Assembly: GCA_027627705.1 (NCBI GenBank)
Contig: CP091242.1
Coordinates: 1,645,581-1,694,883, forward strand
From: Hyphomonadaceae bacterium BL14
GTDB taxonomy: Bacteria > Pseudomonadota > Alphaproteobacteria > Caulobacterales > Maricaulaceae
Direction: 5' to 3'
DNA length: 49,303 nucleotides
Shown: in pieces, positions 13,604 through 29,215 of the stretch
Position numbering within the stretch: the stretch's first letter is position 1
Layout of the letters: each line of letters opens with the position of its first letter
Position numbers and translations under genes: made by a program
The notes under the pieces: generated by a model
The model's database searches: none
Told to the model about the DNA's origin: nothing
The model's input: only the letters and a program-made list of their open reading frames with translations

Positions 13604-13667
13604 GACAGCCCTCCCCGGCTATGGTTGGCGCGAGCGTGCGCGAGGCGGACGGGACGCGCAAGCGTGA

Positions 13668-14879
13668 TCAGGTCACCGCCTTGCGGGTGGTGAATTCCGG
13701 CCGGTCCCAGGCGCGTGTCTCGATCACCTCGGCCAGCGCCGCGCCCGCATCGAACACCTCCACATGGGAGAGGTAGAGCGGGTTGAAGCCGAACCGCATC
13801 AGGTCCGGCGCGCGGAAATCGCCGGTCATGCCGCGCGCGATCATCGCCTGGACGATGGCGTAGCCCTGCTCATGGCGCAGCACCACATGGCCGCCGCGCC
13901 GCTCGCCAATGCCCGGACACGCGGTCTCGAGCCCCAGCGCTTGCGCGCGCTCCAGAAGGATGTCGCCCAGCACGCCGGCCTTGGCCTCCACCCGCGCCAT
14001 ATCCACGCCGTCATAGGCGTCCAGCGCGCCGTCCAGCGTGGACAGCGCCAGGATGGAGGGCGAGCTGGTGCGCCAGCGCACGATGCCGTCCGCCGGGGCG
14101 TAGGGGTCCTCAAACCCGAACGGCCGGGCATGCCCGAGCCAGCCGGTCACCGGATGCTCCAGCTTTGGCGTCTCACCCCGTGCGCAATAGAGGAAGGCGG
14201 GCGCGCCGGGGCCGCCATTCAAAAACTTGTACCCGCAGCCCACGGCGTATCGCGCGCCCCAGGCCTTGAGCTTCAGGTCCACCAGGCCCGTGGCGTGGCT
14301 GAGATCCCAGATGATGGAGAGGCCCCGCGCGGCGGCTTCGCGCTCCCAGCGCTCGAAATCGGCGATGCGCGCGCTTTTGTAATGCACCGCGCTTTTGACC
14401 AGCACGCGCACGTCGTCCGGCAATTCAGACGGCGGGGTATCGGGCGCCACGCGGTGGAAGGGCGCGCCGGACATGCGCGACAGGCCCTCCAGCACATGGC
14501 CGTCTGTGGGAAACTCGCCCGCCTCGGCGGCCAGCGCCCCGCCCTCGCGCGCAATCAGGGCGGCGGCCAGCTTGAAGATATTGATGGTGACGGTGTCGAT
14601 GGCGATCACCTCATCACCGTCCACGCCGATCAGGCGGGCGAGCCTTGCGCCCAGCGTCAGCGGCAGATCCATCCAGCCGGCCGCATTCCATGACCCGATC
14701 AGGCCCTCAGCCCACTCCTGACGTGCCGCCGTGTCGAGCCGTTTGAGCGCGCTGTTTGGCGGCGGCCCCAGCGAATTGCCGTCGAGATAGATATCGCCTG
14801 CCCGCAGCGCGAACAGCGCCCGGCGGTCTTTGAGCGGATCGGCGGCGTCCAGCGCCGCGCAGGCCTCGCGCGTGCGCAT
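13668..14879 (-). CDS. kynU: Kynureninase
   Basis: A 403-residue PLP-dependent enzyme that hydrolyses kynurenine to anthranilate and alanine (or 3-hydroxykynurenine to 3-hydroxyanthranilate) in tryptophan degradation. Visible hallmarks are LDGNSLGPP (residues 32-40), WDLSHATG with the PLP-binding Asp192, GCGYKFLNGGPG with the Schiff-base Lys218, and VRWRTSSPSILAL. The length fits the family. The start at 14879 places it 5 bp after the upstream SDR stop, in operon with it; the longer open frame to 14930 would overlap that gene and lacks a family-like N-terminus. No tryptophan dioxygenase or kynurenine formamidase gene is present in the window. Confidence 0.93.
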   Translation of the reverse strand: MRTREACAALDAADPLKDRRALFALRAGDIYLDGNSLGPPPNSALKRLDTAARQEWAEGLIGSWNAAGWMDLPLTLGARLARLIGVDGDEVIAIDTVTINIFKLAAALIAREGGALAAEAGEFPTDGHVLEGLSRMSGAPFHRVAPDTPPSELPDDVRVLVKSAVHYKSARIADFERWEREAAARGLSIIWDLSHATGLVDLKLKAWGARYAVGCGYKFLNGGPGAPAFLYCARGETPKLEHPVTGWLGHARPFGFEDPYAPADGIVRWRTSSPSILALSTLDGALDAYDGVDMARVEAKAGVLGDILLERAQALGLETACPGIGERRGGHVVLRHEQGYAIVQAMIARGMTGDFRAPDLMRFGFNPLYLSHVEVFDAGAALAEVIETRAWDRPEFTTRKAVT

Positions 14880-14884
14880 CGGCG

Positions 14885-15661
14885 TCAGAGCGGCCCGCGC
14901 GCGGTGATGCCCGCATCGATGATCAGGCACTGTCCGGTCATGTAGCTCGACGCATCGCTCGCCAGGAAGTGGATGGCCGCGGCCATGTCTTCAGGCTGTC
15001 CCACGCGCTGGATCGAGAAATTGCGCTTCATCATGTCGTCCAGCGCAGGATCGGCGGTCAGCGCCGAAGCCAGCTTGGTCTCGGTCAGGCCCGGGCACAG
15101 GGCATTCACGCGGATTTTGTGGGCACCGTATTCCTGGGCCAGCACCTGGGTCATGGAGATCACGGCGGCTTTCGACACCGAGTACACACCCTGGAAGAAT
15201 CCCGGACGGATGCCGTTGATGGAGGCGACATTGATGATCGAGCCGCCGCCCTGGGCCGACATCATCGGAATCGCCAGCGAGGACAGGAAGAACGGGCCTT
15301 TGACATTGACCTCCATCGTCTTGTCCCAGGCGCCGTCCGGGGTTTTGGCGGCCTCGCCGAAATACGGGCTGGTGGCGCCGTTATTGACCAGGATGTCCAG
15401 CCGGCCTTCGGTCTTCTGGATCGATTCGATCGCCGCTTCGCGGTGCTCGGCCTCGCCCAGATGCAGGACCATGGCGCGGGCCTGGCCGCCCTCGGCCTTG
15501 ATCTCGTCAGCCACGCGCTGGCAATCGTCCAGCTTGCGGCTGGAGCAGATCACCATGGCGCCATTGCGCGCCAGGCGCTTGGCCGCAGCCTCGCCAATCC
15601 CGCGGCTGGCACCAGCGATGAGCGCGACCTTGCCCTTGAGCGACAGATCCTGTTCGGACAT
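14885..15661 (-). CDS. Short-chain dehydrogenase/reductase
   Basis: A 258-residue classical SDR: GASRGIGE cofactor loop (residues 17-24), NNGA (about 92-95), catalytic Ser in INVASINGIRPG and YSVSK (Tyr and Lys both present), then PGLTETKLA and a C-terminal GITARGPL. The sequence is that of a typical 3-oxoacyl-ACP or secondary-alcohol dehydrogenase and is commonly annotated only as an SDR. It is followed 5 bp later by kynU. Between its start and the MerR gene lies a 78-bp gap. It could equally serve the acyl-CoA catabolic locus next door, as a hydroxyacyl-CoA or alcohol dehydrogenase. Confidence 0.85.
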   Translation of the reverse strand: MSEQDLSLKGKVALIAGASRGIGEAAAKRLARNGAMVICSSRKLDDCQRVADEIKAEGGQARAMVLHLGEAEHREAAIESIQKTEGRLDILVNNGATSPYFGEAAKTPDGAWDKTMEVNVKGPFFLSSLAIPMMSAQGGGSIINVASINGIRPGFFQGVYSVSKAAVISMTQVLAQEYGAHKIRVNALCPGLTETKLASALTADPALDDMMKRNFSIQRVGQPEDMAAAIHFLASDASSYMTGQCLIIDAGITARGPL

Positions 15662-16153: not shown

Positions 16154-16210
16154 GGCCTGTCTCCCGTGCCCGCAGCCTAGCCAAGGCAGCTGACGCAAAC
16201 AAGAGCCCCT

Positions 16211-16224
16211 TGACGTATACGTCA
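16211..16224. promoter_or_regulatory. Palindromic operator for the MerR/LiuR-like regulator
   Basis: TGACGTATACGTCA is a perfect 14-bp palindrome between the divergent regulator and the carboxylase operon. It overlaps a TTGACG that could be a -35 box (16210-16215). MerR-family proteins bind such elements in long-spacer promoters, and ACGT-centred half-sites resemble the known LiuR sites. Confidence 0.7.
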
Positions 16225-16297
16225 GCGTAGGAGAGGCTGGCGTTCTGGATCGTGGCGGCATGTATCGCCGGACCAGTCAGGGAGGAGACGGGGCCGC

Positions 16298-17182
16298 ATG
16301 ACCGACACGCAAGCCCGTTATGACAGCGTGTTCCGGCCCGGCCTGTTTGAAGGCCAGGTCATTCTGGTCACCGGCGGCGGCTCCGGCATCGGGCGCTGCA
16401 TCGCCCATGAGCTGGCCTCGCTGGGCGCGCAGGTCGTGCTGGCCGGGCGCAAGCCGGACAAGCTTACCGCCGTCGCCGCAGAGATCACCGCTGATGGCGG
16501 ACAGGCGGATACCCAGGCCTTCGACATTCGCGACGAAGAGGCGGTGCGCGCGGGCGTGGCGGAGATTGTCGCGCGCCACAGTGTGATCCATGGCCTGGTC
16601 AACAATGCCGGCGGGCAGTTCCCGGCCGAGATCAAGGATATATCCAAAAAGGGCTGGGACGCGGTGGTCGCCACCAATCTGACCGGCGGTTTTCTGGTCA
16701 TGAAGGCGGTATTCGAGGCGAGCCTGAAAGACCATGGCGGCGCGGTGGTGAACATCACCGCCGACATGCATAACGGCATGCCCGGCATGGCCCATTCGGG
16801 CGCCGCGCGGGCCGGCATGGAGAATCTGACCATGACGGCGGCGGTGGAGTGGGCCAGGCACGGCGTGCGCGTCAACGCCGTGGCGCCCGGCTGGGTCGCC
16901 TCGTCGGGCATGGACACCTATGGCGGCGCGGTGCGCGCCATGATCCCCTATCTCAAACAGCATCTGCCCGCCCAGCGCCTGGGGTCGGAAGCCGAGATCG
17001 CTGCGGCAGTGACCTTCTTGCTGAGCCCCGCAGCCGCCTTCATCACCGGAACGATGCTGCGCGTGGATGGCGGCGCGCCCCTGGGCGGACGCCACTGGCC
17101 GCTGGAAGCCCACGAGGCCGCGCCGGTGTATAACGGGTTTCACCGGGCGGTTGACCCGGCCGTGCTGCGCGGAGAGGGCTGA
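16298..17182 (+). CDS. Atypical SDR, enoyl-CoA/dienoyl-CoA reductase type (AtuB position)
   Basis: A 294-residue SDR with TGGGSGIG (about residues 25-32) and NNAGGQFPAE. The usual YxxxK is replaced by HSGAARAG (about 168-175), the arrangement found in 2,4-dienoyl-CoA and peroxisomal trans-2-enoyl-CoA reductases, where the catalytic tyrosine lies elsewhere. It is first in the carboxylase operon, directly downstream of the palindromic operator, and overlaps the next gene by 1 bp (TGATG). In atu clusters an SDR (atuB) stands at this position. A role in reducing an unsaturated acyl-CoA or oxidising a terpenol is possible; the substrate is unproven. Confidence 0.78.
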   Translation: MTDTQARYDSVFRPGLFEGQVILVTGGGSGIGRCIAHELASLGAQVVLAGRKPDKLTAVAAEITADGGQADTQAFDIRDEEAVRAGVAEIVARHSVIHGLVNNAGGQFPAEIKDISKKGWDAVVATNLTGGFLVMKAVFEASLKDHGGAVVNITADMHNGMPGMAHSGAARAGMENLTMTAAVEWARHGVRVNAVAPGWVASSGMDTYGGAVRAMIPYLKQHLPAQRLGSEAEIAAAVTFLLSPAAAFITGTMLRVDGGAPLGGRHWPLEAHEAAPVYNGFHRAVDPAVLRGEG

Positions 17183-18792
17183 TGCCGGCGATTGTCTCAC
17201 GCCTCAATCCGGTTTCGGAGGCGTTCACCGCCGCGCGCGACGCGATGACCGGGAAGCTGCAAGAGGCGCGCGGCCTCGAAGACAAGGTGCGCGCCAACTC
17301 CGCCTCAAAGCGCGAGCGCTTTGCCGAACGCGGGCAGATCCTGCCGCGCGAGCGCGTGGCCCTTCTGGTCGACCGCGATGCGCCGTTTCTCGAGCTCTCG
17401 GCGCTGGCCGGCCTGAAAATGCACGACGATGATGGCGGGCGCGGCGCGTCGGGCGGCGGGTCGGTCATCGGCATTGGCGTGGTGGCCGGCAAGCGCTGCG
17501 TGGTCTCGGCCTCCGACAGCGCCATCAAGGGCGGTACTGTCGCGCCCATGGGTCTGAAGAAGGCCCTGCGCGCCCAGGAGATCGCGCTCGAAAACAAGCT
17601 GCCCATGATCCATCTGGTGGAATCGGGCGGTGCCAACCTGCTGTATCAGGCGGAGATTTTCGTTGATGGCGGGCGCAGCTTCGCCAATCAGGCGCGCCTG
17701 AGCGCCGCCGGCATTCCCCAGATCGCCGTGGTGCACGGCTCCTCCACCGCCGGGGGCGCCTATCTGCCGGGCCTGTCAGACTATGTCGTGCTGGTGCGCA
17801 AGAAATCGAAAATCTTCCTGGCCGGGCCGCCGCTGGTCAAAGCCGCCATTGGCGAAGACGCCGATGACGAATCCCTGGGCGGCGCGGACCTCCATGCCGA
17901 AGTGACGGGCCTTGGCGAATACATCGTCGATGATGACGCGCAAGCGCTCGCCTGCGCGCGCGAGATCATGGACAAGCTCAATTGGGACGCCGCCACGCCG
18001 CCCGGCGCCGGTGCCCCCCCGCTCCATGACGCTGACGAGCTTCTGGGCATTATCCCGCCCGACGACCGCACGCCGTGGGATGTGCGCGAGGTGATTGCCC
18101 GCATCGTGGACGGATCGGACTTCCTGGCGTTCAAGGAGCGCTATGGCGCCGAGACGGTTTGCGGCCATGCACGCATGGGCGGGCGGCCTGTGGGCATTAT
18201 CGGCAATAACGGTCCGATCCAGCCTGAAGGCTCCATGAAGGCGGGACAGTTCATCCAGCTGTGCGACCAGTCAGGCACACCGCTGGTCTTCCTCCAGAAC
18301 ACCACCGGCTACATGGTCGGCACGCGCGCCGAGCGCGAGGGGGCCATCAAGCACGGTTCGAAAATGATCCAGGCCGTGGCCAATGCCCGCGTGCCCAAGC
18401 TGACCATCGTGCTGGGCGGCAGTTTCGGCGCGGGCAATTACGGCATGTGCGGACGCGGGTTCGATCCGCGCTTCATCTTCGCCTGGCCCACCGCGCGCAC
18501 CGCCGTGATGGGCGGCGCGCAAGCCGCCAAGGTGATGGAGATCGTCACCCGTACCAAGAATGCCCGCGATGGTCAGGACACAGACGAAGCGGGTCTGGCC
18601 CAGATGAGCGCCATGATCGAACAGGGGCTCAACGAGCAGTCCCAGGCGCTGTTTGGATCGGCCCGGCTCTGGGATGACGGCATCATTGATCCGCGCGATA
18701 CCCGCGCCATCCTCATGGAATGCCTGAATATCTGTGCCGAAGCCGAGGCGCGGACCTTGCGGCCCAACACCTTCGGCGTGGCTCGGTTCTGA
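17182..18792 (+). CDS. Acyl-CoA carboxylase beta subunit (methylcrotonyl/geranyl-CoA type)
   Basis: A 536-residue carboxyltransferase that moves CO2 from carboxybiotin to the gamma-methyl carbon of a 3-methyl-2-enoyl-CoA. Typical sequences are VESGGANLLYQAEIF, GSSTAGGAYLPGLSDYVV (oxyanion loop, N-half), FLQNTTGYMVG and GGSFGAGNYGMCGRGFDPRFIF (C-half). The length fits both methylcrotonyl-CoA carboxylase (LiuB) and geranyl-CoA carboxylase (AtuC). The segment GGRSFANQARLSAAGIPQ, with SFANQ where methylcrotonyl enzymes usually have an aromatic pair, and the atu-like gene order lean towards the geranyl-CoA type; this is an inference. The alpha subunit is three genes downstream. Hairpins follow the stop codon. 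Confidence 0.9.
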   Translation: MPAIVSRLNPVSEAFTAARDAMTGKLQEARGLEDKVRANSASKRERFAERGQILPRERVALLVDRDAPFLELSALAGLKMHDDDGGRGASGGGSVIGIGVVAGKRCVVSASDSAIKGGTVAPMGLKKALRAQEIALENKLPMIHLVESGGANLLYQAEIFVDGGRSFANQARLSAAGIPQIAVVHGSSTAGGAYLPGLSDYVVLVRKKSKIFLAGPPLVKAAIGEDADDESLGGADLHAEVTGLGEYIVDDDAQALACAREIMDKLNWDAATPPGAGAPPLHDADELLGIIPPDDRTPWDVREVIARIVDGSDFLAFKERYGAETVCGHARMGGRPVGIIGNNGPIQPEGSMKAGQFIQLCDQSGTPLVFLQNTTGYMVGTRAEREGAIKHGSKMIQAVANARVPKLTIVLGGSFGAGNYGMCGRGFDPRFIFAWPTARTAVMGGAQAAKVMEIVTRTKNARDGQDTDEAGLAQMSAMIEQGLNEQSQALFGSARLWDDGIIDPRDTRAILMECLNICAEAEARTLRPNTFGVARF

Positions 18793-18815
18793 ACCGCGCG
18801 CGCCTTGCCCTCTAA

Positions 18816-18860
18816 GTCCCGGGCTGCGCCCGGGACACCTCCTCCGCAGGCGGCGGAGGA
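18816..18860 (+). repeat. Two intercistronic hairpins
   Basis: GTCCCGGGC (18816-18824) pairs perfectly with GCCCGGGAC (18828-18836) over a 3-nt loop; TCCTCCGC (18840-18847) pairs with GCGGAGGA (18853-18860) over a 5-nt loop. They sit between the carboxylase beta and acyl-CoA dehydrogenase genes, directly before the latter's ribosome binding site. There is no T-run. REP-type element or RNA-processing/stability element. Confidence 0.7.
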
Positions 18861-18879
18861 CACCGAAAGGAGACCAGAC

Positions 18880-20052
18880 ATGCAGTTCACCGAGCAGCAC
18901 GAGCAATTGCGCGACACGGTCGCGAAATTCATCACCCAGGAAATCAATCCGCATGTGGAGGAATGGGAGGCTGCGGGCGAGTTTCCGTCCCACGCCCTGT
19001 TCAAGAAGATGGGTGATCTGGGCCTTCTGGGCCTGCGCTGGCCGGAGAAGTATGGCGGCGCAGGGCTGGACATGTCCTACTCCATGGTGATGGCCGAGGA
19101 GCTGGGCCTGATCAATTGCGGCGGCGTGCCGATGGCCATCGGCGTCCACACCGATATGTGCACACCGGCGCTGGCCAATTTCGGTTCTGAAGACCTGTGC
19201 CGGGAATTCCTGACCCCCTCCATCACCGGCGATTATGTCGGGTGCCTGGGCGTGTCAGAGCCGGGCGGCGGCTCGGACGTGGCGGCGGTGACCACGAAAG
19301 CGGTGTCCGACGGCGATGATTACGTCATTACCGGCACCAAGATGTGGATCACCAACGGCATGAAGGCCGATTGGTGCTGCCTGCTGGCCAATACGTCCGA
19401 CGGCAAGGCCCACGAGAACAAGTCCCTGATCATCGTGCCGATGAACGAAAAGGGCATCAGCCGCCAGAAAATCCACAAGATCGGCATGCACTCGTCCGAC
19501 ACCGCGCAGCTCTTCTTCGATGAAGTGCGCGTGCCCAAGCGTAACCGGATCGGCGATGAAGGCGCGGGCTTCCTCTATCAGATGCTGCAATTCCAGGAAG
19601 AGCGCATCTATGGCGCGGCGTCTTCTCTCAAGGCATTGGACCGCCAGATTGATCTGACCATCGAATACACCCGCGATCGCAAGACCTTCGGCACGCCGAT
19701 CCTGGACAATCAGGTGGTGCATTTCCGCCTGGCCGAGCTGCGCACCGAGGTCGAGGCCCTGCGCTCGCTGACCTACCGCGCCGTGGAGGATTTCATCGCC
19801 GGCAAGGACGTCACCAAGCTCGCCTCCATGGCCAAGCTGAAGACCGGCCGGCTGTCGCGCGAAGTGGCCGACGCGTGCCTGCAATACTGGGGCGGCATGG
19901 GCTACACGGCCGACAACCCCATCGCGCGCGCTTTCCGCGACGGGCGCCTGGTGTCCATTGGCGGCGGGGCCGACGAGATCATGCTGGGCATTATCGCCAA
20001 GCTGGAAGGCACCTTGCCCCGGCGCAAGAAACCGGTGGAAGGCAATGCCTGA
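18880..20052 (+). CDS. Acyl-CoA dehydrogenase, isovaleryl/citronellyl-CoA type
   Basis: A 390-residue FAD enzyme that introduces the 2,3-double bond in an acyl-CoA. Visible hallmarks are LGVSEPGGGSD (substrate/FAD loop), KMWITNG, TFGTPI and LQYWGGMGYTADNPIARAFRDGRL. The segment FQEERIYGA places a Glu just before the Arg, the position of the catalytic base in isovaleryl-CoA dehydrogenase, while the C-terminal site reads IGGGADEI. This supports a 3-methyl-branched substrate. The start at 18880 follows AAGGAG by 8 nt. In atu order it is the atuD (citronellyl-CoA dehydrogenase) position. It overlaps the next gene by 8 bp. Confidence 0.9.
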   Translation: MQFTEQHEQLRDTVAKFITQEINPHVEEWEAAGEFPSHALFKKMGDLGLLGLRWPEKYGGAGLDMSYSMVMAEELGLINCGGVPMAIGVHTDMCTPALANFGSEDLCREFLTPSITGDYVGCLGVSEPGGGSDVAAVTTKAVSDGDDYVITGTKMWITNGMKADWCCLLANTSDGKAHENKSLIIVPMNEKGISRQKIHKIGMHSSDTAQLFFDEVRVPKRNRIGDEGAGFLYQMLQFQEERIYGAASSLKALDRQIDLTIEYTRDRKTFGTPILDNQVVHFRLAELRTEVEALRSLTYRAVEDFIAGKDVTKLASMAKLKTGRLSREVADACLQYWGGMGYTADNPIARAFRDGRLVSIGGGADEIMLGIIAKLEGTLPRRKKPVEGNA

Positions 20053-20848
20053 GACCTGGGACACCCTCAGCGTCGAGGCCCGCGCCGGCGTGGTCCACAT
20101 CACGCTGAACCGGCCCGAACTGCGCAATGCCATGTCGCTGGCCATGGTGGATGAGCTGCTGGCCGCGCTGGCGGCGGCTGAGGCCGGCCCTGCGCGCGCC
20201 ATCGTGCTGCGCGGGGCCGGCGGGCATTTCTGTTCGGGCGGCGACATCAAGGATATGGGCGCGGCGCAAGGCGCTGCGGGCACCGACGGGGTGGACCCGG
20301 CGGCGCGCGTGAATGCACGGTTCGGCCATCTGTGCAAAGCCTATGCTGAGACCGGCCTGCCGGTGGTCGCGGTCCTGGACGGCGCGGTGATGGGGGGCGG
20401 ATTTGGCCTCGCCTGCGTGGCCGATGTGGCGCTGGCGCGCGAGACCGCCCTGTTCCGTCTGCCTGAAACGGGCCTCGGCCTGGTACCCGCCCAGATCGCG
20501 CCTTTCCTTGTGGAGCGTCTGGGCTATTCGCAGGCGCGCCGCCTGGCGGTCACCGGTGGAAAGATCGATGCCCGCGCCGCGCTGGCGCTGGGACTGGTGC
20601 ATGGCGTGTGTGACGGTGAGGACGCCCTGGTCGAGGCGCTGGACGGCGTGCTGGGCGACATTCGCAAAGGTGCCCCCAACGCCATCGCCGCCACCAAGCG
20701 CCTGATGCGCAAGGCGCGCCTGAATGATGCGGGCGATCTCATTGATGACGCTGCAGCCGTGTTTGCCGCCGCGGTGAAAAGTGCAGAAGGCGCTGAAGGC
20801 CTGACGGCGTTCCTGGAAAAGCGCCCGGCGAAATGGGTGCAGGGATGA
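20045..20848 (+). CDS. Enoyl-CoA hydratase/isomerase (AtuE/LiuC-like)
   Basis: A 267-residue crotonase-fold protein. The oxyanion-hole motifs are FCSGGDIKDMG (about residues 61-71) and DGAVMGGGFGLA (about 110-121), and FRLPETGLGLVP (about 134-145) carries a catalytic-type Glu. By position it should hydrate the carboxylated product (methylglutaconyl-CoA or isohexenyl-glutaconyl-CoA) between the alpha and beta carboxylase genes, as LiuC or AtuE do. The start at 20045 overlaps the dehydrogenase end by 8 bp and its stop overlaps the next start in ATGA, so the three genes are translationally coupled. Confidence 0.9.
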   Translation: MPETWDTLSVEARAGVVHITLNRPELRNAMSLAMVDELLAALAAAEAGPARAIVLRGAGGHFCSGGDIKDMGAAQGAAGTDGVDPAARVNARFGHLCKAYAETGLPVVAVLDGAVMGGGFGLACVADVALARETALFRLPETGLGLVPAQIAPFLVERLGYSQARRLAVTGGKIDARAALALGLVHGVCDGEDALVEALDGVLGDIRKGAPNAIAATKRLMRKARLNDAGDLIDDAAAVFAAAVKSAEGAEGLTAFLEKRPAKWVQG

Positions 20849-22812
20849 CCGCGCCCCGCCTTATCCGCTCTGTCCTGGTGGCCAATCGCGGCGAGATCGC
20901 GGTGCGGGTGTTGCGCCACGCCAAAGCCAATCAAATGCGCGCCATCGCTGTGTATTCCGACGCCGATGCGCTGGCCATGCATGTGCGCGAAGCCGATGAG
21001 GCGGTGCGCATCGGCCCGGCGCCGGCGGCTGAAAGCTATCTCGATAGCGCGGCGATCCTGGCGGCAGCAAAAGCCACGGGTGCCGACGCCATCCATCCCG
21101 GTTACGGCTTTTTGTCGGAGAACGCCGCCTTCGCCCGCGCGGTGATCGGGGCCGGCCTCATCTGGATCGGACCGCCGCCTGACGCCATAGACGCCATGGG
21201 CGACAAGGCGCGCGCCAAGGCGCTGATGATCAAGGCGGGTGTGCCCACCGTGCCCGGCTGGCAAGGCGAGGATCAGTCGGACGACAACTTGGCCCGGCAA
21301 GCCGGGACCATCGGCTTTCCCCTGCTGATCAAGGCGGTGGCGGGCGGCGGCGGGCGCGGCATGCGCGCCGTGCACAACGCCGCTGAGTTCGCCGAGGCGC
21401 TGGCTTCGGCCCGGCGCGAGGCGAAATCAGCCTTTGGCGATGACGCGGTGCTCCTGGAGAAACTGGTCGAGACCGCCCGCCATGTGGAGGTGCAGGTGTT
21501 TGGCGACCAGCAGGGTGCCATCATCCATCTGGGCGAGCGCGATTGCTCGGCCCAGCGCCGCCGCCAGAAAGTGGTGGAGGAAGCCCCCTCCCCCGCCGTC
21601 AACGCCGAACTTCGCGCGGCCATGGGCGCGGACGCGGTGCGCGCCGCCAAGGCCGTCCATTATGTGGGTGCCGGCACGGTGGAGTTTCTGCTGGATGCGT
21701 CGGGCGCTTACTACTTCCTTGAGATGAACACCCGGCTTCAGGTCGAGCATCCTGTGACCGAAATGGTCAATGGCGTCGACCTCGTCGAGTGGCAGTTCCT
21801 GATCGCGCAAGGCTTCGCCCTGCCGTTTGGCCAGGACATGATCGATCTCAACGGCCACGCGATAGAGGTGCGCCTCTATGCCGAGGACCCCCTCGACGGG
21901 TTCAGGCCGCAATCGGGCGATATCGCCTGGTTCGAACCGGACGACGCCGGGCGCGAGGTGCGCATCGATACAGGCTTCGTGACCGGCGACACCATCTCCA
22001 CCGCCTATGACGCCATGGTGGCCAAGATTATCGCCTGGGCGCCGAACCGCGCTGAAGCCGTCGACATGTTGCTGGCGGGTCTGGCCAAGGCGCCCTTGCT
22101 GGGGGTCAAGACCAATCGCGATCTTCTGATCCGCCTGATCGACAGTGCGGCGTTCCGGGCGGGTGCCCTCACCATTTCCGACCTGGACGAATGGGCGGGC
22201 GCACGCACGGGTCCATTTGCGCCCGCTGATGTCCCCACAGAGGCTGTTCTTGTCACCGCTCTGCTCCTGGCACGACACGCGCCAGGGGTGATCCGGTCCG
22301 GGTCTGTCACGCGTTTCGCCCTGCCGCTCGACGTCGACGGGACACGCGTTGAGCCCATGGTGGAGCAGGCCGGACCCGGCGCGCTCACCGTCACGATGGG
22401 GGATAACCGCCACGATATCACCCTTCTGGATCGCGACGGGCCGCGCCTGCGCTACCGCCTTGATGGCGTGGACCGGCGCTGCCTGGCGCTGCAGGACGCA
22501 GACGGGGCGGTGCATGTCGCGCTCAACAACCGCATCGCGGTGCTGCGCGAGCCGGCCTTGCTGGCCGGTGCCGGCGCGGCCGACCCCTCACGCCTGACGG
22601 CCCCGGTGAGCGGCGCGGTGGTGGCCGTCAACGTGAAGCCCGGTGACAGCGTGACCTCCGGCGATGTGCTGGCGGTGATGGAAGCCATGAAGATGGAAAT
22701 GCGCCTGACCGCCGCCGCCGATGGCGTGGTGGCGGCGGTACACACGGCACCGGGCCAACAGGCCAACGGCGGCGCGCTGCTGATCGAACTCAAGCTTGAG
22801 GACAAGGCATGA
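20845..22812 (+). CDS. Acyl-CoA carboxylase alpha subunit (biotin carboxylase + BCCP)
   Basis: A 655-residue biotin-containing subunit. The N-terminal biotin carboxylase (about residues 5-450) has VLVANRGEIAVRV, the ATP-grasp loop KAVAGGGGRGM, ERDCSAQRRRQKVVEEAPSP and EMNTRLQVEHPVTE. A linker follows, then a C-terminal biotinyl domain with EAMKMEM (biotinylated Lys616). It carboxylates biotin with ATP and bicarbonate for the beta subunit encoded three genes upstream. Size and layout match LiuD and AtuF. It overlaps its neighbours by 4 bp on both sides (ATGA), so it is fully embedded in the operon. Confidence 0.93.
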   Translation: MTAPRLIRSVLVANRGEIAVRVLRHAKANQMRAIAVYSDADALAMHVREADEAVRIGPAPAAESYLDSAAILAAAKATGADAIHPGYGFLSENAAFARAVIGAGLIWIGPPPDAIDAMGDKARAKALMIKAGVPTVPGWQGEDQSDDNLARQAGTIGFPLLIKAVAGGGGRGMRAVHNAAEFAEALASARREAKSAFGDDAVLLEKLVETARHVEVQVFGDQQGAIIHLGERDCSAQRRRQKVVEEAPSPAVNAELRAAMGADAVRAAKAVHYVGAGTVEFLLDASGAYYFLEMNTRLQVEHPVTEMVNGVDLVEWQFLIAQGFALPFGQDMIDLNGHAIEVRLYAEDPLDGFRPQSGDIAWFEPDDAGREVRIDTGFVTGDTISTAYDAMVAKIIAWAPNRAEAVDMLLAGLAKAPLLGVKTNRDLLIRLIDSAAFRAGALTISDLDEWAGARTGPFAPADVPTEAVLVTALLLARHAPGVIRSGSVTRFALPLDVDGTRVEPMVEQAGPGALTVTMGDNRHDITLLDRDGPRLRYRLDGVDRRCLALQDADGAVHVALNNRIAVLREPALLAGAGAADPSRLTAPVSGAVVAVNVKPGDSVTSGDVLAVMEAMKMEMRLTAAADGVVAAVHTAPGQQANGGALLIELKLEDKA

Positions 22813-23672
22813 TGGACAAGGCTGTATTGACCTGCGCGCTCAATGGCGTGCTGACCAATCCCAAGACCCACAAGGTCCCGGTGACTCCGCGGGAAATGGC
22901 GGCCAGCGCGCGCGAGGCCTATGATGCGGGGGCCAGCGTGATGCATGTCCATTTCCGCATGCAGGAAGACGGCGTCGGCCACTTCCCCAGCTGGGACCCT
23001 GAGGTGGCCGCGTCCATCATCGATGCGATCCGGGATGCCTGCCCGGGCGTGGTCATCAACCAGACTACCGGCATTGTCGGGCCGGACGTGTCGGGCCCCG
23101 TGGCGTGCATCAAACGGGTCAGGCCGGAGATCGCCGCCTGCAATGCCGGTTCACTCAATTACCTCAAACTGCGCAGCGATGGCAGCTGGGCCTGGCCGCC
23201 CATGGTGTTCGACAATCCGGTGGATAAAATCCAGACCATGCTCGACGCCATGGCCGAGGTGGGCGCGCACCCGGAGTTCGAATGCTTCGATGTCGGCATT
23301 GTGCGCAGCGTGGGCATGTTCATCGAGAACGGCATGGCCCCGGCAGCCCACTACAACTTCGTCATGGGCGTCGCCTCGGGCATGCCGTGCGATGCGCGGC
23401 TGCTGGAATTGCTGATTGATTACAAGCGTGTGGGCGATCCCTGGCAGGCGACCCTGATCGGGCGCGCCGAGATCTGGCCGGTCCACCAGCGCGTGGCCGA
23501 GCTTGGCGGCATGCTGCGCACCGGTCTGGAGGATACCTTCTACCTGCCCGACGGCGAACGGGCAGCGGGCAATGGCGCGCTGATCGAGGCCTTGGCACAG
23601 TGCGCGAAAAACGCCGGACGTGAGGTGGCGTCGCCTGCAGAAGCCCGTAAGATCATGGGACTGGCACACTAG
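22809..23672 (+). CDS. Beta-keto acid cleavage enzyme (BKACE, DUF849)
   Basis: A 287-residue TIM-barrel enzyme of the BKACE family, named after 3-keto-5-aminohexanoate cleavage enzyme (Kce). Family members condense a beta-keto acid with acetyl-CoA to give acetoacetate and a new acyl-CoA, using a metal. The metal-binding HVHFR (about residues 46-50) and the conserved GLEDTFYL near residue 236 are present. The N-terminus TCALNGV differs from the aminohexanoate enzyme, so the substrate is probably not an amino-keto acid. It takes the place where liu clusters carry HMG-CoA lyase. It overlaps the alpha subunit gene by 4 bp. Confidence 0.88.
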   Translation: MMDKAVLTCALNGVLTNPKTHKVPVTPREMAASAREAYDAGASVMHVHFRMQEDGVGHFPSWDPEVAASIIDAIRDACPGVVINQTTGIVGPDVSGPVACIKRVRPEIAACNAGSLNYLKLRSDGSWAWPPMVFDNPVDKIQTMLDAMAEVGAHPEFECFDVGIVRSVGMFIENGMAPAAHYNFVMGVASGMPCDARLLELLIDYKRVGDPWQATLIGRAEIWPVHQRVAELGGMLRTGLEDTFYLPDGERAAGNGALIEALAQCAKNAGREVASPAEARKIMGLAH

Positions 23673-23714
23673 ACCCTGCCGGCAGCGGACGGGGCGCGAT
23701 AACGGGAGGTTGGC

Positions 23715-25553
23715 ATGCAGGCGACAGCGAAGGACTTGCCGCGGATTCTGGACGGGCTGTTTCCCTCAACACCAGCGCGGATGCTGGATCAAGGACAGCG
23801 CCGGGGCGCAGAGCCGGCCTACACCGCCTATGACGGCGCGAACTGGGTCTCGACCAGCTGGGGCGAGTATGCTGACCAGACCCGCCAGGCGGCGCGTGCC
23901 CTGATCGCCCTGGGCTTCAAGGCCGACGATGCGTGCGCCATCCTCGGCTTCAACCGGCCTGAATGGACCATTGCCGCCATCGCCGCGATGATGGCAGGCG
24001 GGCGCCCGGCGGGCGTCTACTGGACCAGCTCCGAACCGGAAATCGCGTATATCCTCCAGCACTCGGAAAGCCCGGTCTATCTGGTCGAAACCGCCGAGCA
24101 GGCGCGCAACGCCCTGGCGCTGAAAGCCGAATGCCCGAACCTCACCCACATCATCATGATGCAGGGGCCTGAGCCCGCGCCCGAGGGCGCGCTGAGCTGG
24201 GAGGCCTTCATGGCCAAGGGCGAGGCGCAGTATGACGACGAAGTCAGCGCCCGGCTCATGGCCATCAACGAGGCGACCATCGGCGCACTGATCTATACAT
24301 CCGGCACCACCGGCCCGCCCAAGGCGGTGATGCTCACCCACGGCAACATCTCGTGGAGTGCGGGCATGCTGTCGGAAATGTTCCAGCATCGCGAAGGCGA
24401 TACCGGCTTGTCCTACCTGCCTATCGCCCACATCGCCGAGCAGCAGGCGAGCGTGCATAATCACGTGGCGTCAGGCTCCAATCTGTATTTTGCACGCTCC
24501 ATGGAAACCCTGGCGGAGGATTTGAAGGTTGCCCGCCCGACGGTGTTCTTTGGCGTGCCGCGGGTCTGGGAGAAGTTCAACGAGGCCCTGCGCGGGCGTC
24601 TCGCCGAGGCGACAGGCCCCAAGGCCAAGATCGCCGCCTGGGCCATGGGCGTGGCCAAACGCTATCACGAGGCAGACATTGCCGGCCGCAATCCGGGGCC
24701 CATCCTGAGCCTGCAGATGGGTCTGGCGCGCAAGCTGGTGCTGAACAAGATCAAGGCGGCGCTGGGTCTGGACCGGGCGCGCATGCTGATCTCCGGCGCG
24801 GCGCCGATCTCCAGGGACGTCCTGGTGTTTTTCACCGGTCTCGATCTGGTGATCTATGAAGGCTACGGCCAGTCGGAGACCAGCGCGCCCACGGCCTTCA
24901 ATCAGCCTGGTGCCGCGCGTCTGGGATCCGTGGGGCGCATGATCGACCATATGGAGGCGCGCATCTCCGAAGAGGGCGAGCTGCAGGTCAAAGGGCCCAA
25001 TGTTTTTGCCGGCTATATGAAGAATAACGAAGCCACCGAGAACACGTTCACCCGTGATGGCTGGATGCGCACTGGCGATGTCGTGCGGATGGACGAGGAT
25101 GGCTTCGTCTTCATCACGGGCCGGATCAAGGACATCATTATCACCTCGGGCGGCAAGAACATCACGCCGGCCAATATCGAGACCGATCTGATGAATGATC
25201 CGCTGATCGAGCATGCAGTGGTGGTTGGCGATGCACGCCCCTATCTGACCGCGCTCGTGACGCTGAGCGAAGACGGGCTCGCCAAGTTCGCCAAGGCCAA
25301 AGGCATGGATTCGGGAGAGGCGCGCTCGAGCGACGCCCTGACCGGCGCGCTCCAGACGGCAGTGGATGGCGTCAACAAGCGCTACGCCCGGGTGGAGAAT
25401 GTGCGCAAATTCCGCGTCCTGCCCGCCGCCCTCACCGTGGAAACCGGAGAGCTGACGCCCACGATGAAGGTGCGGCGCAATGTGGTGACGGCGCGCAACA
25501 GCGCGCTGATCGAGGCGATGTACGCTGAAGGCCATGCCGGCGCCGATATCTGA
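23715..25553 (+). CDS. AMP-dependent long-chain acyl-CoA synthetase
   Basis: A 612-residue adenylate-forming ligase with the AMP-binding signature IYTSGTTGPPKAVMLTH (about residues 193-209), GYGQSETSAPTAFN and TGDVVRMDEDGFVFITGRIKDIIITSGGKNI near the C-terminus. It activates a carboxylic acid to its CoA ester via an acyl-AMP. The overall form is that of long-chain (FadD15-type) synthetases, the type found as atuH in acyclic terpene clusters. It has a good ribosome binding site (GGGAGG, 6 nt) after a 42-bp gap. Its end overlaps the Baeyer-Villiger gene by 20 bp, linking activation of the acid to ring opening. Confidence 0.9.
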   Translation: MQATAKDLPRILDGLFPSTPARMLDQGQRRGAEPAYTAYDGANWVSTSWGEYADQTRQAARALIALGFKADDACAILGFNRPEWTIAAIAAMMAGGRPAGVYWTSSEPEIAYILQHSESPVYLVETAEQARNALALKAECPNLTHIIMMQGPEPAPEGALSWEAFMAKGEAQYDDEVSARLMAINEATIGALIYTSGTTGPPKAVMLTHGNISWSAGMLSEMFQHREGDTGLSYLPIAHIAEQQASVHNHVASGSNLYFARSMETLAEDLKVARPTVFFGVPRVWEKFNEALRGRLAEATGPKAKIAAWAMGVAKRYHEADIAGRNPGPILSLQMGLARKLVLNKIKAALGLDRARMLISGAAPISRDVLVFFTGLDLVIYEGYGQSETSAPTAFNQPGAARLGSVGRMIDHMEARISEEGELQVKGPNVFAGYMKNNEATENTFTRDGWMRTGDVVRMDEDGFVFITGRIKDIIITSGGKNITPANIETDLMNDPLIEHAVVVGDARPYLTALVTLSEDGLAKFAKAKGMDSGEARSSDALTGALQTAVDGVNKRYARVENVRKFRVLPAALTVETGELTPTMKVRRNVVTARNSALIEAMYAEGHAGADI

Positions 25554-27018
25554 CGCCCCGCTGCCTGACCGCTGCGACGCCGTCATCATTGGTGCCGGCT
25601 TTGCCGGGATTGCCATGGGCCGGCAGCTGGACCGGGCCGGCGTGAGCGATTTTGTCATCCTGGAGCGCGCCAGCGGACCGGGCGGAGTCTGGCGCGCCAA
25701 CCGCTATCCCGGCGCGGCGTGCGACGTGCCGAGCCATCTGTATTCCTTCAGCTTCTTTCCCAACCCGGACTGGAGCCGGAAATTCTCGCCCCAGGCCGAA
25801 ATCCTCGCCTATCTGGACAGAGCCGCCGATGCCTTCGATCTGCGCTCGCGCATGCGGTTCGGTTGCACAGTGACGGGGCTCTTGTTTGTTCAAGACCAGG
25901 GCCGCTGGCGCGTCAGGCTGTCCGACGGACGCACGCTCTGCGCGCGCGCCGTGATCAGCGCCGTGGGCCAACTATCCGAGCCGGTGATCCCGGCCATTCC
26001 CGGCCTCGAGACGTTCGAAGGTCAAGTCGTGCACTCGGCTGAGTGGCCCGAGGACCTCGACGTGACCGGGCAGAACGTCGCCGTCATCGGCGCCGCGGCA
26101 AGCGCCGTGCAGCTCCTGCCCGAGATGGCGGAGCGTGCGGCGCACCTGACCGTGTTTCAGCGCACACCCAACTGGATCATCGACAAGCCTGATCGCCCGT
26201 TCACCGCGCTGGAGAAGGCCGCCTTCCGCCACGTGCACGGCTGGCATTGGCTTTACCGCACCGCCAGCTTCCTGATCCACGAAACCCGCTTTGCCGCCTT
26301 TCTGTCGGGCACGCTGGCAAATGCGTTTACCCGCTGGCGCATGCTGGCGCGGCTGAAGCGCGAGGTCCGCGATCCGGCCTTGCGCGCCAGGCTGACACCG
26401 GATTTTGCGCCGGGCTGCAAGCGCATCCTGCTGACCAGCGAGTTCTATCCCACCCTGCAGCGGCCCAATGTCACGCTGGACGATAGCGGCGTAGCGAGCA
26501 TCGGCCCGCGCGAGATCATCAATGGCCAGGGCAATCGCATCGCCGCCGACACGCTGGTCTTTGCCACAGGCTTCAAGGCGACGGAATTTCTGCCCACCAT
26601 CTCGGTCACCGGCCGGGACGGGCTGGATCTGCGCGCCGCGTGGGGCGACAGCCCGCGCGCCTATCGCGGCGTGGCCGTCCACGGCTTTCCCAATTTGTTC
26701 ATCCTCTACGGGCCGAACACCAATCTGGGCCACAACTCGATCATCTTCATGCTGGAGCGCCAGAGCGAATATACCGCCCGCCAGGTGCGCCGCCTGATCA
26801 CAGAAGACTGGCGCATTCTGGAAGTCACCGCGCAGGCCGAGGCGCATTTCAATCAGGTCATGCAGGCACGTCTCGCCCGCACGGTCTGGGCAGAGGATTG
26901 TCCCAGCTGGTACAAGACGCGCGACGGGGTGATCACCAATAACTGGTCAGGGCTCGCCACCTCCTTTGCATTGGCACTGGCGGGCGGCGATGATCAGGCT
27001 TGGTCAGCCTCCAGATGA
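25534..27018 (+). CDS. Baeyer-Villiger-type flavin monooxygenase
   Basis: A 494-residue FAD/NADPH enzyme with the first Rossmann motif GAGFAG (residues 20-25), GGVWRANRYPGAACD, and the type I Baeyer-Villiger fingerprint FEGQVVHSAEWP (residues 161-172), an exact match to FxGxxxHxxxWP. The second nucleotide motif reads IGAAASA, with Ala where a middle Gly is usual. Such enzymes insert oxygen next to a ketone, giving an ester or lactone. It overlaps the upstream synthetase by 20 bp, and its 3' end overlaps the oppositely oriented hydrolase by 25 bp. It is a plausible source of a terpenoid lactone for that hydrolase. Confidence 0.9.
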   Translation: MPAPISDAPLPDRCDAVIIGAGFAGIAMGRQLDRAGVSDFVILERASGPGGVWRANRYPGAACDVPSHLYSFSFFPNPDWSRKFSPQAEILAYLDRAADAFDLRSRMRFGCTVTGLLFVQDQGRWRVRLSDGRTLCARAVISAVGQLSEPVIPAIPGLETFEGQVVHSAEWPEDLDVTGQNVAVIGAAASAVQLLPEMAERAAHLTVFQRTPNWIIDKPDRPFTALEKAAFRHVHGWHWLYRTASFLIHETRFAAFLSGTLANAFTRWRMLARLKREVRDPALRARLTPDFAPGCKRILLTSEFYPTLQRPNVTLDDSGVASIGPREIINGQGNRIAADTLVFATGFKATEFLPTISVTGRDGLDLRAAWGDSPRAYRGVAVHGFPNLFILYGPNTNLGHNSIIFMLERQSEYTARQVRRLITEDWRILEVTAQAEAHFNQVMQARLARTVWAEDCPSWYKTRDGVITNNWSGLATSFALALAGGDDQAWSASR

Positions 27019-27923
27019 GGCTTGAGCCAGTCTCTGGCCCGCTCCAGCGAGGCGTCGGCTTCGCTGATCAACGGCGCGAACAGCTGAAAATCATGCCACA
27101 TCCCGGCCCAGACCTCGCACCGGGTCACCACGCCAGCAGCCTCCAGGGCTGCGTGCAGGCGCACCGAGTCGTCGAGCAGAATCTCGTCCTCGCCGACCTG
27201 GATGAAGACGGGCGGCAGATCGGAAAGATCGGAATACAGCGGCGAGGCATCCGGGTCGCGCGGGTCGAGCTGGCGCAAATACAGCTCCGCCCCGGCTTTG
27301 AGATTGCCCGGCGTCAGCATGGGATCGGCGTCCGCGCGCGTCTTCACGCTGTCGCCCGAGAGCGACAGATCGGTCCAGGGCGAGATCAGGTACAGCGCGT
27401 CCGGCAAGCCGCCGCCCGCATCGCGCTGGCGGATGAGGCTGGCCAGCGCCAGCCCGCCGCCCGCACTGTCCCCGGCCAGCAGGAGCGGGCCGTCCTCCTC
27501 GGCGCAGGCGAGCGCCAGCGCCGCAGCCCCATCCTCCACCGCCGCCGGGCAGGCATGTTCAGGTGCCATGCGGTAATCCACCGACACGGCGCGCCTGTTG
27601 AACAGGGCCGACAGGCGGGCCACCAGCGGTTTGTGGCTCTGGGCCGACCCGCGCGAATACCCGCCGCCATGAAAGAACAGGATCAGGCCCGGCTCCGGCT
27701 GGCGCGGGGTGAAAGCCAGCGCCGGCAGGCCGGCATAAGTGATGCGATCGATCACAATGCCTTTGGGCGCGGGCAGGCGATCACCGGCATGATCCATCCG
27801 CGCGCGTTGGACCTCGACAGACGAGTCGCGCGACAACGCGCTGCGCCCTACCTTGCGCGCCATGCGCCGGCCGAGATAGCGGCGCAATCCCAGCCCGCCC
27901 TGCCTGCCGATCCGTTCCAGCAT
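26994..27923 (-). CDS. GDXG-family alpha/beta hydrolase (lactone/ester hydrolase)
   Basis: A 309-residue hydrolase of the hormone-sensitive-lipase (GDXG) family. It carries the oxyanion motif HGGGYSRG, the nucleophile in GDSAGGG, the acid in GEDEILLDD and the base His in MWHDFQ, so the triad is complete. The monoterpene epsilon-lactone hydrolase MlhB belongs to this family. Lying between a Baeyer-Villiger monooxygenase and an Old Yellow Enzyme, it is a good candidate to hydrolyse the lactone or ester product. It is on the opposite strand to both: its end overlaps the monooxygenase gene and its ATG (AGGAGA 6 nt upstream) is only 14 bp from the divergent start of the next gene. Confidence 0.9.
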   Translation of the reverse strand: MLERIGRQGGLGLRRYLGRRMARKVGRSALSRDSSVEVQRARMDHAGDRLPAPKGIVIDRITYAGLPALAFTPRQPEPGLILFFHGGGYSRGSAQSHKPLVARLSALFNRRAVSVDYRMAPEHACPAAVEDGAAALALACAEEDGPLLLAGDSAGGGLALASLIRQRDAGGGLPDALYLISPWTDLSLSGDSVKTRADADPMLTPGNLKAGAELYLRQLDPRDPDASPLYSDLSDLPPVFIQVGEDEILLDDSVRLHAALEAAGVVTRCEVWAGMWHDFQLFAPLISEADASLERARDWLKPHLEADQA

Positions 27924-27937
27924 GAAAGTCTCCTGTC

Positions 27938-29215
27938 ATGACCCTGATGGCTTCATCTTTCACCCTGCCATGCGGCGTGACAATCGCGAACCGCCTTGCC
28001 AAAGCCGCGATGACCGAGGGCCTGGCCGAGGCAGGCGGCCGGGCAGGGCCACGGATTATGCGTGCCTACCGCGCTTGGGCGGAGGGCGGGGCCGGCCTGC
28101 AGATCACCGGCAATATTATGGTTGACCGACGCTATCGCGAGCGTCCAGCCAATATCGTGGTGGACGGTGAACAAAGCGCTGAGGCCAGGGCGGGCCTCGC
28201 GGCCTTCGCCGAAGCCGCGGCATCCGGCGGCGGCGTCACGATAGCGCAGATATCCCATGCCGGGCGTCAAAGCCCGAAAATCATCGCCCCCGAACCGGTG
28301 GGGCCATCCGCCGTCGCGGTGAAGTTGCCTGGCGGCGTGTTTGCCGCGCCGCGCGCGCTGACTGAAGCTGAACTCACCGACATTATCGCGCGCTTCGCTC
28401 ACACGGCGCGCTGCCTGACCGATGCCGGCTTCGACGGTGTGCAGCTGCATGCCGCCCACGGCTATCTGATCAGCGAGTTCCTCAATCCGCGCGTCAATCA
28501 GCGTGAGGACCGCTGGGGCGGGGCGCTGGAAAACCGCGCGCGCCTGCTGATCGAGACTGTGCGCGCAGTGCGGCAGGCTGTTGGTACGGACAGGGTGGTG
28601 AGCGTGAAGTTGAACTCGTCTGATTTTCAGAAGGGCGGATTCAGCTTTGAAGACTGCCTGGCGGTGGTGGCCCTGCTGGATCAGGAAGGCGTCGACCTGA
28701 TCGAGATTTCCGGCGGCAATTACGAACAACCCCGCATGATGGGGCTGCAAGGTCTGGAGCCGCTGTTCGATCCCGGCGCACGTGAGAGCACACGGGCGCG
28801 CGAAGCCTATTTCATGACCTATGCCCGCGAGGTCATCGCGGCAGCGAAGACGCCAGTGATGGTTACAGGCGGCTTCAGGACCGCCAAAGCCATGACTGAA
28901 GCGCTGGAAGATGGCGTGGCGGTGATCGGTCTGGGCAGGCCCTTGTGCGTCGACCCGGACGCCCCGGCCAGGCTCCTGCGCGGTGACTGGGACTGGCTGC
29001 CCGCCTGGGAGACCCAGCTGAGGATCCATCCGGTTTTCACCGCTGCCTTTCCTGACGAGGTACGCCGGGTGGTGGAGGGGCTGGCCTTGATGGCATTCTT
29101 TTACCGCAACATAATACGGCTCGGGAACGGCAAGACCCCAAAGCGCTCGATGAGCCTGATGGCGGCGCTGATCGCCCACCAGATCACCGAACGCGAAGAC
29201 GCCAAGCGCATGTAA
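27938..29215 (+). CDS. NADH:flavin oxidoreductase (Old Yellow Enzyme family)
   Basis: A 425-residue FMN enzyme with the TIM-barrel pattern of OYE/2,4-dienoyl-CoA reductase-like proteins: AAMTEGLAE near the N-terminus, AQISHAGRQSP, GFDGVQLHAAHGYLISEFLNP and NQREDRWGG. It lacks the C-terminal FeS and FAD domains of full 2,4-dienoyl-CoA reductase. Members reduce the C=C bond of enones, for example carvone. The ATG at 27938 (alternative 27947) has no clear ribosome binding site, because the upstream 14 bp separate it from the divergent hydrolase start. It may be expressed by read-through from the upstream plus-strand genes. Confidence 0.87.
   Translation: MTLMASSFTLPCGVTIANRLAKAAMTEGLAEAGGRAGPRIMRAYRAWAEGGAGLQITGNIMVDRRYRERPANIVVDGEQSAEARAGLAAFAEAAASGGGVTIAQISHAGRQSPKIIAPEPVGPSAVAVKLPGGVFAAPRALTEAELTDIIARFAHTARCLTDAGFDGVQLHAAHGYLISEFLNPRVNQREDRWGGALENRARLLIETVRAVRQAVGTDRVVSVKLNSSDFQKGGFSFEDCLAVVALLDQEGVDLIEISGGNYEQPRMMGLQGLEPLFDPGARESTRAREAYFMTYAREVIAAAKTPVMVTGGFRTAKAMTEALEDGVAVIGLGRPLCVDPDAPARLLRGDWDWLPAWETQLRIHPVFTAAFPDEVRRVVEGLALMAFFYRNIIRLGNGKTPKRSMSLMAALIAHQITEREDAKRM

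Follow-up and report, generated by a model that had tools for sequence, protein, structure and literature searches.

The stretch of DNA considered here, referred to as the window, comprises 49,303 nucleotides of Hyphomonadaceae bacterium BL14, corresponding to bases 1645581-1694883 of a 3.03-Mb genome found on one contig. Examination of open reading frames (ORFs) and protein family matches revealed a cluster in which a divergently read gene for a MerR-family (LiuR-like) regulator and an operator-like dyad are followed by genes assigned to a short-chain dehydrogenase/reductase (SDR), an acyl-CoA carboxylase beta subunit, an acyl-CoA dehydrogenase, an enoyl-CoA hydratase, the carboxylase alpha subunit, a protein of the BKACE family, an acyl-CoA synthetase, a Baeyer-Villiger monooxygenase (BVMO), a hydrolase of the GDXG family and an Old Yellow Enzyme (OYE) family reductase (Table 1). 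As such, every gene named in an initial annotation, prepared from the sequence alone, is present and in the order stated there, as are the LiuR-like regulator and its operator. The same holds for the core running from the SDR to the carboxylase alpha subunit, an order which, like that annotation, we take to be that of atuBCDEF. The start codons listed for the dehydrogenase (18880), hydratase (20045) and carboxylase alpha subunit (20845) are of our own choosing. Given its orientation relative to both neighbors, the GDXG hydrolase gene is considered to lie outside the operon.

Table 1. Features of the cluster, with positions numbered from the first base of the window.
Feature	Position	Strand	Remarks
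MerR-family (LiuR-like) regulator, 137 aa	15740..16153	-	Pfam MerR_1; divergent from operon
Operator-like dyad CTTGACGTATACGTCAG	16209..16225		overlaps -35-like TTGACG
SDR, AtuB position	16298..17182	+	stop overlaps carboxylase start by 1 nt
Geranyl-CoA-carboxylase-type beta subunit	17182..18792	+	Gly163 at pocket, without three-residue insert
Acyl-CoA dehydrogenase, AtuD position	18880..20052	+	family match; start 18880 probable
Enoyl-CoA hydratase, AtuE position	20045..20848	+	family match
Carboxylase alpha subunit, biotin carboxylase and biotinyl domain	20845..22812	+	family match
BKACE	22809..23672	+	PF05853; metal site and several catalytic residues of Kce retained, with Leu15 in place of Kce Glu14
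AMP-binding acyl-CoA synthetase	23715..25553	+	best NCBIfam model FadD11, 402 bits, under cut-off of 950
Type I BVMO	25534..27018	+	20-nt overlap of start with end of synthetase gene
GDXG (hormone-sensitive-lipase family) hydrolase	26994..27923	-	Abhydrolase_3; convergent with BVMO gene, divergent from OYE gene
OYE family reductase	27938..29215	+	optional member, 13/22 clusters

The initial annotation had also described the locus as possibly complete. Yet, among the locus genes, neither an HMG-CoA-type lyase nor an alcohol/aldehyde dehydrogenase pair was found. When the genome was examined with the PF00682 profile, two genes were obtained, namely, a 604-aa open frame and an HMG-CoA lyase scoring above the NCBIfam cut-off. 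The latter (L025:1438-2397), the sole gene in the genome found over the family cut-off, lies some 1.3 Mb from the cluster, such that the locus is not complete in this respect.

The beta subunit encoded in the cluster matched geranyl-CoA carboxylase (GCC; 5ikl_B) with a score of 739 bits, as compared to 517 bits for methylcrotonyl-CoA carboxylase (MCC; 3u9r_B). According to PMC4673880, GCC is recognized by a glycine at the position of GCC Gly162 and by the lack of a three-residue insertion before it. Indeed, when aligned with 5ikl_B and 3u9r_B, the cluster subunit presents glycine at this size-deciding position and no three-residue insertion, as do all 22 orthologues fetched from the same family (Maricaulaceae). 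By contrast, a second beta subunit in the genome (L007:9685-11292; 50% identical) matched MCC at 847 bits and contains both the insertion and a phenylalanine, while a second alpha subunit (L018:1516-3510; 51%), probably that of MCC, is also encoded away from the cluster. As judged by these alignments, the cluster carboxylase is of the geranyl-CoA type and not of the methylcrotonyl-CoA type, in agreement with what had been annotated. It was also noted that genes of the leucine pathway (i.e., those for MCC beta, the probable MCC alpha and HMG-CoA lyase) are dispersed at separate sites in the genome, with no single liu operon.

Conservation of the cluster was considered in a sample of 137 genomes of the family, in which GCC beta subunits were sought at E<=1e-170. 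This revealed matches in 48 genomes, with 23 (the source genome included) sharing 74-100% and 25 sharing 51-54% identity; loci were fetched for every other member (22) of the former group and for 10 of the 25 in the latter. In each of the 22 fetched loci with >=74% identity in GCC beta, a MerR relative occupies the same position, and the full run of MerR-SDR-beta-dehydrogenase-hydratase-alpha-BKACE-synthetase-BVMO-GDXG was seen in 18 of these. As for the incomplete loci, L027 and L047 end at a contig end, L045 lacks matches to the hydratase, alpha subunit, BVMO and GDXG hydrolase, and L046 lacks matches to the hydratase and BVMO. BVMO orthologues (57-100%) were found in 22 of the 137 genomes, again including the source genome, with the next BVMOs of the family reaching 45% or less. 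In all 22, the BVMO gene lies beside GCC genes on one contig, with 19 found in full runs (the 18 mentioned above and the window) and the other three, namely, G090 (represented by L058, which agrees with G090:C5 in coordinates and identity), G091 and G095, adjoining GCC alpha. In 17 of the 18 loci considered besides the window, the synthetase and BVMO genes overlap by 11-26 nt, as counted from the nearest start codon; no standard BVMO start was recognized in L032 in this check. GDXG orthologues (55-100%) are present in 23 family genomes, i.e., the 22 with the BVMO and G011, with three of the rows containing one stop inside the matched stretch. The OYE is found in 13 of the 22 clusters and is missing from nine, with more distant relatives (50-60%) being present in 14 other family genomes.

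Two further observations were made on these loci. In L046 (6760-15998), GCC, BKACE, synthetase and GDXG genes occur without a BVMO gene between them, offering a natural case of loss (or of the state before acquisition). The 10 loci L048-L057, which come from further genera of the family, encode another GCC-like beta subunit that shares 51-54% with that of the window and presents small pocket residues (GG, or SG in L053) but a different preceding loop, with an alpha-subunit match adjoining in nine of these fetched loci.

A search for the dyad in the window with up to two mismatches, for which 0.09 matches are expected by chance, yielded two, corresponding to both strands of one dyad. This dyad, TTGACGTATACGTCA, recurs between the MerR and SDR genes with no more than a single mismatch in 22 of the 23 family loci, counting the window, and with three in L045. 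Mean conservation of the operator columns is 0.95 as compared to 0.66 in the flanks, a figure inflated by each family site having been chosen as the best match to that of the window. Beyond the window site, a genome-wide search returned only sites with two mismatches, 12 as opposed to eight in a reversed-pattern control, such that, in number, these weak sites barely exceed chance. No operator-like site with up to three mismatches was seen close to the gene for MCC beta. The same genome contains, at about 402 kb, a second MerR gene (L173:4383-4907; 43% to that of the window) with two acyl-CoA dehydrogenase-like genes following it and four overlapping operator near-copies (TTGACGTTGACGTGAACGTAA) directly before it; this locus is perhaps a sister switch of beta-oxidation.

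Because the BVMO gene lies beside GCC genes in all 22 genomes, overlaps the synthetase gene and shares a cluster with a conserved operator, the GCC half and the BVMO half form, at the level of gene organization, one conserved unit, as the initial annotation had held in joining them. The gene set recognized there was right and now stands more firmly than the sequence of one window could allow. No description of this gene combination was found in the open-licence literature searched.

Beyond the family, GCC beta was detected at E<=1e-185 in 31 of 385 genomes of the class (the source genome included), with 30 loci being fetched. An SDR match was present in 16 of these and any acyl-CoA dehydrogenase in 23, and the SDR-beta-dehydrogenase-hydratase-alpha run, with or without a hydratase match, recurs in a number of other GCC loci from Alphaproteobacteria. 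Neither a BVMO nor a GDXG match was found in any of the 30, three of which span just 3.6-10.7 kb, and BKACE lay near two. For L139 and L050, gene content was assigned by tblastn only.

The window BKACE matched PF05853 with a score of 273 bits, placing it in the BKACE/Kce family. His46, His48, Glu143, Arg226, Glu230 and Asp231 of Kce are kept, while Glu14, Ser82 and Thr106 are replaced by Leu, Thr and Ala, respectively (numbering after subtraction of an inferred six-residue tag). We take Glu14 to be the ligand of the amino group of the Kce substrate, with the roles of the other Kce residues likewise being presumed. Close BKACE relatives outside the family were sought at E<=1e-85, yielding, besides the source genome, five of 385 class genomes and 15 of 398 phylum genomes, three of which are shared, for a total of 17 distinct genomes. 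In 15 of the 17, a GCC-like beta subunit (53-73%) is encoded within the fetched stretch (<=20 kb). By family, this linkage holds in six of eight, with nine of the 15 genomes coming from one genus. The two remaining loci are L168, a 7.6-kb contig offering a GCC-type dehydrogenase only, and L177, from another class, with its BKACE relative at ~9.5-10.4 kb of the reversed locus and no GCC match nearby. No BVMO match was found in the 17 loci (L168 being of the length just given). Twelve of the 15 BKACE-linked beta subunits (L166, L169, L170 and L178-L186) are of the 53-57% kind, with small pocket residues and a one-residue loop insertion; the canonical pocket loop is seen in L138, L175 and L176 only. 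In these comparisons, a GCC-like carboxylase, if not in every case a canonical GCC, is to be expected where BKACE is found, and the converse does not hold for GCC. The subgroup differs from Kce in its GCC-like linkage, as well as in the three replacements.

One of these loci, L175 (2200-10389), comes from a different class and brings together genes for MerR (56%), SDR, both carboxylase subunits (GCC beta, 73%), dehydrogenase, hydratase and BKACE, with no synthetase, BVMO or GDXG matches. The best operator-like site of this locus, ATGACGTTAACGTAA, precedes the SDR gene and differs from that of the window by four mismatches; as other sites there differ by five, position alone speaks for it. The L175 core hints at transfer between classes.

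The window BVMO retains both sequence fingerprints that we take to define Type I enzymes, FxGxxxHxxxW[P/D] and GxWxxxxYPGxxxD, with the first reading FEGQVVHSAEWP. In the other nine aligned rows, the second is present throughout and the first in full in six, with L031 and L039 ending in N and L035 presenting Y...WT. Comparison with solved steroid, cyclohexanone, OTEMO and phenylacetone enzymes gave 235-241 bits; a search of the PDB with the BVMO profile at 1e-100 gave no match, this threshold being too strict. Next, a pattern scan of named genomes, which may leave out the source genome itself, was considered, with the best 80 loci being listed, one of them from Oceanicaulis. Among the 79 others listed, all from outside the family, 36 have a GDXG hydrolase, mostly directly after the BVMO, and none has a GCC or BKACE match, some spanning just 3-6 kb. 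The best BVMO match among the named genomes listed was that of L058, an Oceanicaulis metagenome-assembled genome (74%; Maricaulaceae). In a tree of 103 rows, built by a quick method with SH-aLRT support only, the 22 cluster BVMOs make up a single clade (100) nested within a group of 44 rows (98); nearly all GDXG-paired BVMOs of Pseudomonas, Alcanivorax, Acinetobacter and Burkholderiales belong to a different group, of 46 rows (88, not starred). Given this tree, the BVMO was probably recruited once in this family. An AlmA/EthA-type BVMO, considered with reference to PMC12449030, was set aside. In the window BVMO, one stretch does not match the motif of AlmA. The hydrolase was assigned to the broad GDXG/HSL family only.

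Together, the GCC-type pocket, the operon structure, the conserved operator and linkage, and the BKACE/GCC-like linkage elsewhere, all of which are documented by sequence comparison, are the ground on which we infer the reactions, lyase products, substrate and order of BKACE and BVMO that follow. With somewhat less than even confidence, we propose that the cluster encodes a MerR/LiuR-controlled, acyclic variant of the Atu pathway for 3-methyl-branched isoprenoid acids, with a BKACE and a BVMO-esterase branch. The synthetase would activate such an acid (of the citronellate/geranate type or longer), and the resulting acyl-CoA would undergo dehydrogenation, GCC-dependent carboxylation at its methyl branch and, finally, hydration. 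The HMG-CoA lyase encoded elsewhere in the genome could then cleave the hydrated product to acetyl-CoA and a free beta-keto acid, these being the products of HMG-CoA lyase chemistry. BKACE enzymes use a beta-keto acid and acetyl-CoA, such that BKACE might convert both lyase products into acetoacetate and a shortened acyl-CoA. Beta-keto acids also decarboxylate spontaneously to methyl ketones, natural substrates of BVMOs. In this manner, loss of CO2 would yield an isoprenoid methyl ketone, such as 6-methylhept-5-en-2-one, which the BVMO could oxidize to the corresponding acetate ester; hydrolysis of that ester by the GDXG esterase would then release a primary alcohol along with acetate. Formation of a free beta-keto acid and its decarboxylation would thus explain BKACE, BVMO and esterase together, with no need for a ring. 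The more specific proposal, namely, that the GCC route releases a free beta-keto acid, that BKACE and not a CoA-ester thiolase finishes the route, and that the BVMO and esterase of this family rescue the decarboxylated methyl ketone, is put forward a little more tentatively still. The single HMG-CoA lyase candidate in the genome, the variable presence of the OYE and the occurrence of BKACE/GCC-like linkage outside the family without this BVMO are all consistent with the acyclic pathway.

Several points weigh against this proposal. Chief among them, PMC4097962, a review, gives the products of the LiuE lyase (EC 4.1.3.26) as 7-methyl-3-oxo-6-octenoyl-CoA and acetate, i.e., a CoA ester, which would leave BKACE without its proposed role. 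Moreover, GCC elsewhere works without BKACE, and the altered loop of most BKACE-linked carboxylases means that their substrate may differ. As for the BVMO, the solved enzymes, given their similar scores, do not separate cyclic from acyclic types; the other 22 rows of its 44-row group have no GDXG match in their loci, and its position outside the GDXG-paired group weakens the aliphatic-ketone analogy, which draws on gene pairing and on PMC12753306 (SadD, SadA/SadB) and not on orthology. The GDXG gene lies on the strand opposite the BVMO gene, has no operator copy at up to two mismatches and, in G011 (L046), is found in a cluster with no adjoining BVMO. Finally, no alcohol/aldehyde dehydrogenase for the ester-derived alcohol is encoded in the cluster.

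The initial annotation had instead proposed that the BVMO and a GDXG lactonase open the ring of a p-menthane-type ketone, with the resulting 3,7-dimethyl-6-hydroxy/oxo-octanoate being activated and entering the GCC half. Physical joining of the BVMO, hydrolase and, in those clusters that have it, OYE genes with GCC speaks for such a route and, in chemical terms, the ring-opened acid from menthone would be 3-methyl-branched and a plausible GCC substrate, such that menthone-type entry chemistry is feasible. Nonetheless, nine of the 22 clusters manage without the OYE, no dedicated terpenol dehydrogenase is encoded in the cluster, and no sequence feature points to a ring. The absence of a BVMO match from all 17 BKACE-bearing and all 30 class-level GCC loci further implies that the core does not need the BVMO, which was seen only in the clusters of this family, while the GCC/BKACE association is wider. 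No result supports a cyclic substrate; ring opening is considered less probable than the acyclic pathway, yet a serious rival to it, and the earlier interpretation as a whole is partly supported.

Slightly less probable, in our estimation, is that the BVMO and esterase serve as an entry route for external acyclic isoprenoid methyl ketones, such as phytone, geranylacetone or 6-methylhept-5-en-2-one from the breakdown of phytol, squalene or carotenoids, sharing regulation with the Atu core on account of the co-occurrence of the two kinds of compound. The BVMO/GDXG pairing, as in clusters for aliphatic 2-ketones, and the nearest named BVMO match being from Oceanicaulis, a marine genus, would fit such a role. 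By known chemistry, however, the Baeyer-Villiger product would be 4-methyl-branched, with no direct need for GCC, no uptake or upstream genes were recognized in the cluster, and the BVMO falls outside the GDXG-paired group of the tree. Lastly, a leucine/isovalerate (Liu) operon, as could be suggested by the LiuR-like regulator and the homology of MCC and GCC operons, or a fortuitous grouping of catabolic genes unrelated to one another, is most improbable, the former being rejected because of the GCC-type site and the separate MCC in the genome, and the latter because synteny, BVMO linkage, gene overlap and operator are kept even as BVMO identity drops to 57%.

Of the systems known, the Pseudomonas Atu cluster (atuABCDEFGH and liuE) is like that of the window in its SDR, GCC beta, dehydrogenase, hydratase and GCC alpha order. 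No protein of the cluster matched AtuA in Pfam (we take its accession to be PF07287), the rest of the genome not having been searched for AtuA. Unlike the Pseudomonas cluster, that of the window adds a MerR regulator and its operator, together with BKACE, BVMO, GDXG hydrolase and OYE. The two share the GCC-type pocket, and the lyase would here, as in Pseudomonas (PMC4097962), be borrowed from leucine catabolism. The Acinetobacter sad cluster for aliphatic 2-ketones (SadD BVMO, SadA/SadB esterases) likewise presents a BVMO beside a GDXG hydrolase. A BVMO-SDR-Abhydrolase_3 run is present in A. calcoaceticus L097, where the gene after the hydrolase encodes a GMC oxidoreductase, such that L097 is at most a putative sad locus; unlike in L097, the window BVMO (42% identical) belongs to another tree group, the hydrolase gene lies on the opposite strand and GCC genes are joined. 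Opening of monoterpene ketone rings in Rhodococcus (MMKMO, MlhB) shares the BVMO and GDXG hydrolase and, in part, the OYE, a substrate of that kind being hypothetical for the window cluster.

The Atu scheme is vulnerable in the CoA bookkeeping of its isohexenylglutaryl-CoA lyase step, since an HMG-CoA lyase mechanism would not be expected to give the acyl-CoA and acetate listed as products. Were the proposed role of BKACE true, this gap in the Atu pathway would be filled, and the BKACE subgroup would gain a native role in several proteobacterial families. As BKACE is tied to GCC-like carboxylases in several families, the lyase step is testable with two purified enzymes, and a concrete substrate prediction is offered for both the BKACE subgroup and the BVMO clade. 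Related to the marine genus Oceanicaulis, these bacteria may meet algal isoprenoids.

Finally, a kynureninase gene and an SMP-30-like gene (window positions 12542-15661) adjoin the MerR side of the cluster, with relatives of both also being found there, in the other orientation, in the family loci L030, L033, L034, L036 and L046.

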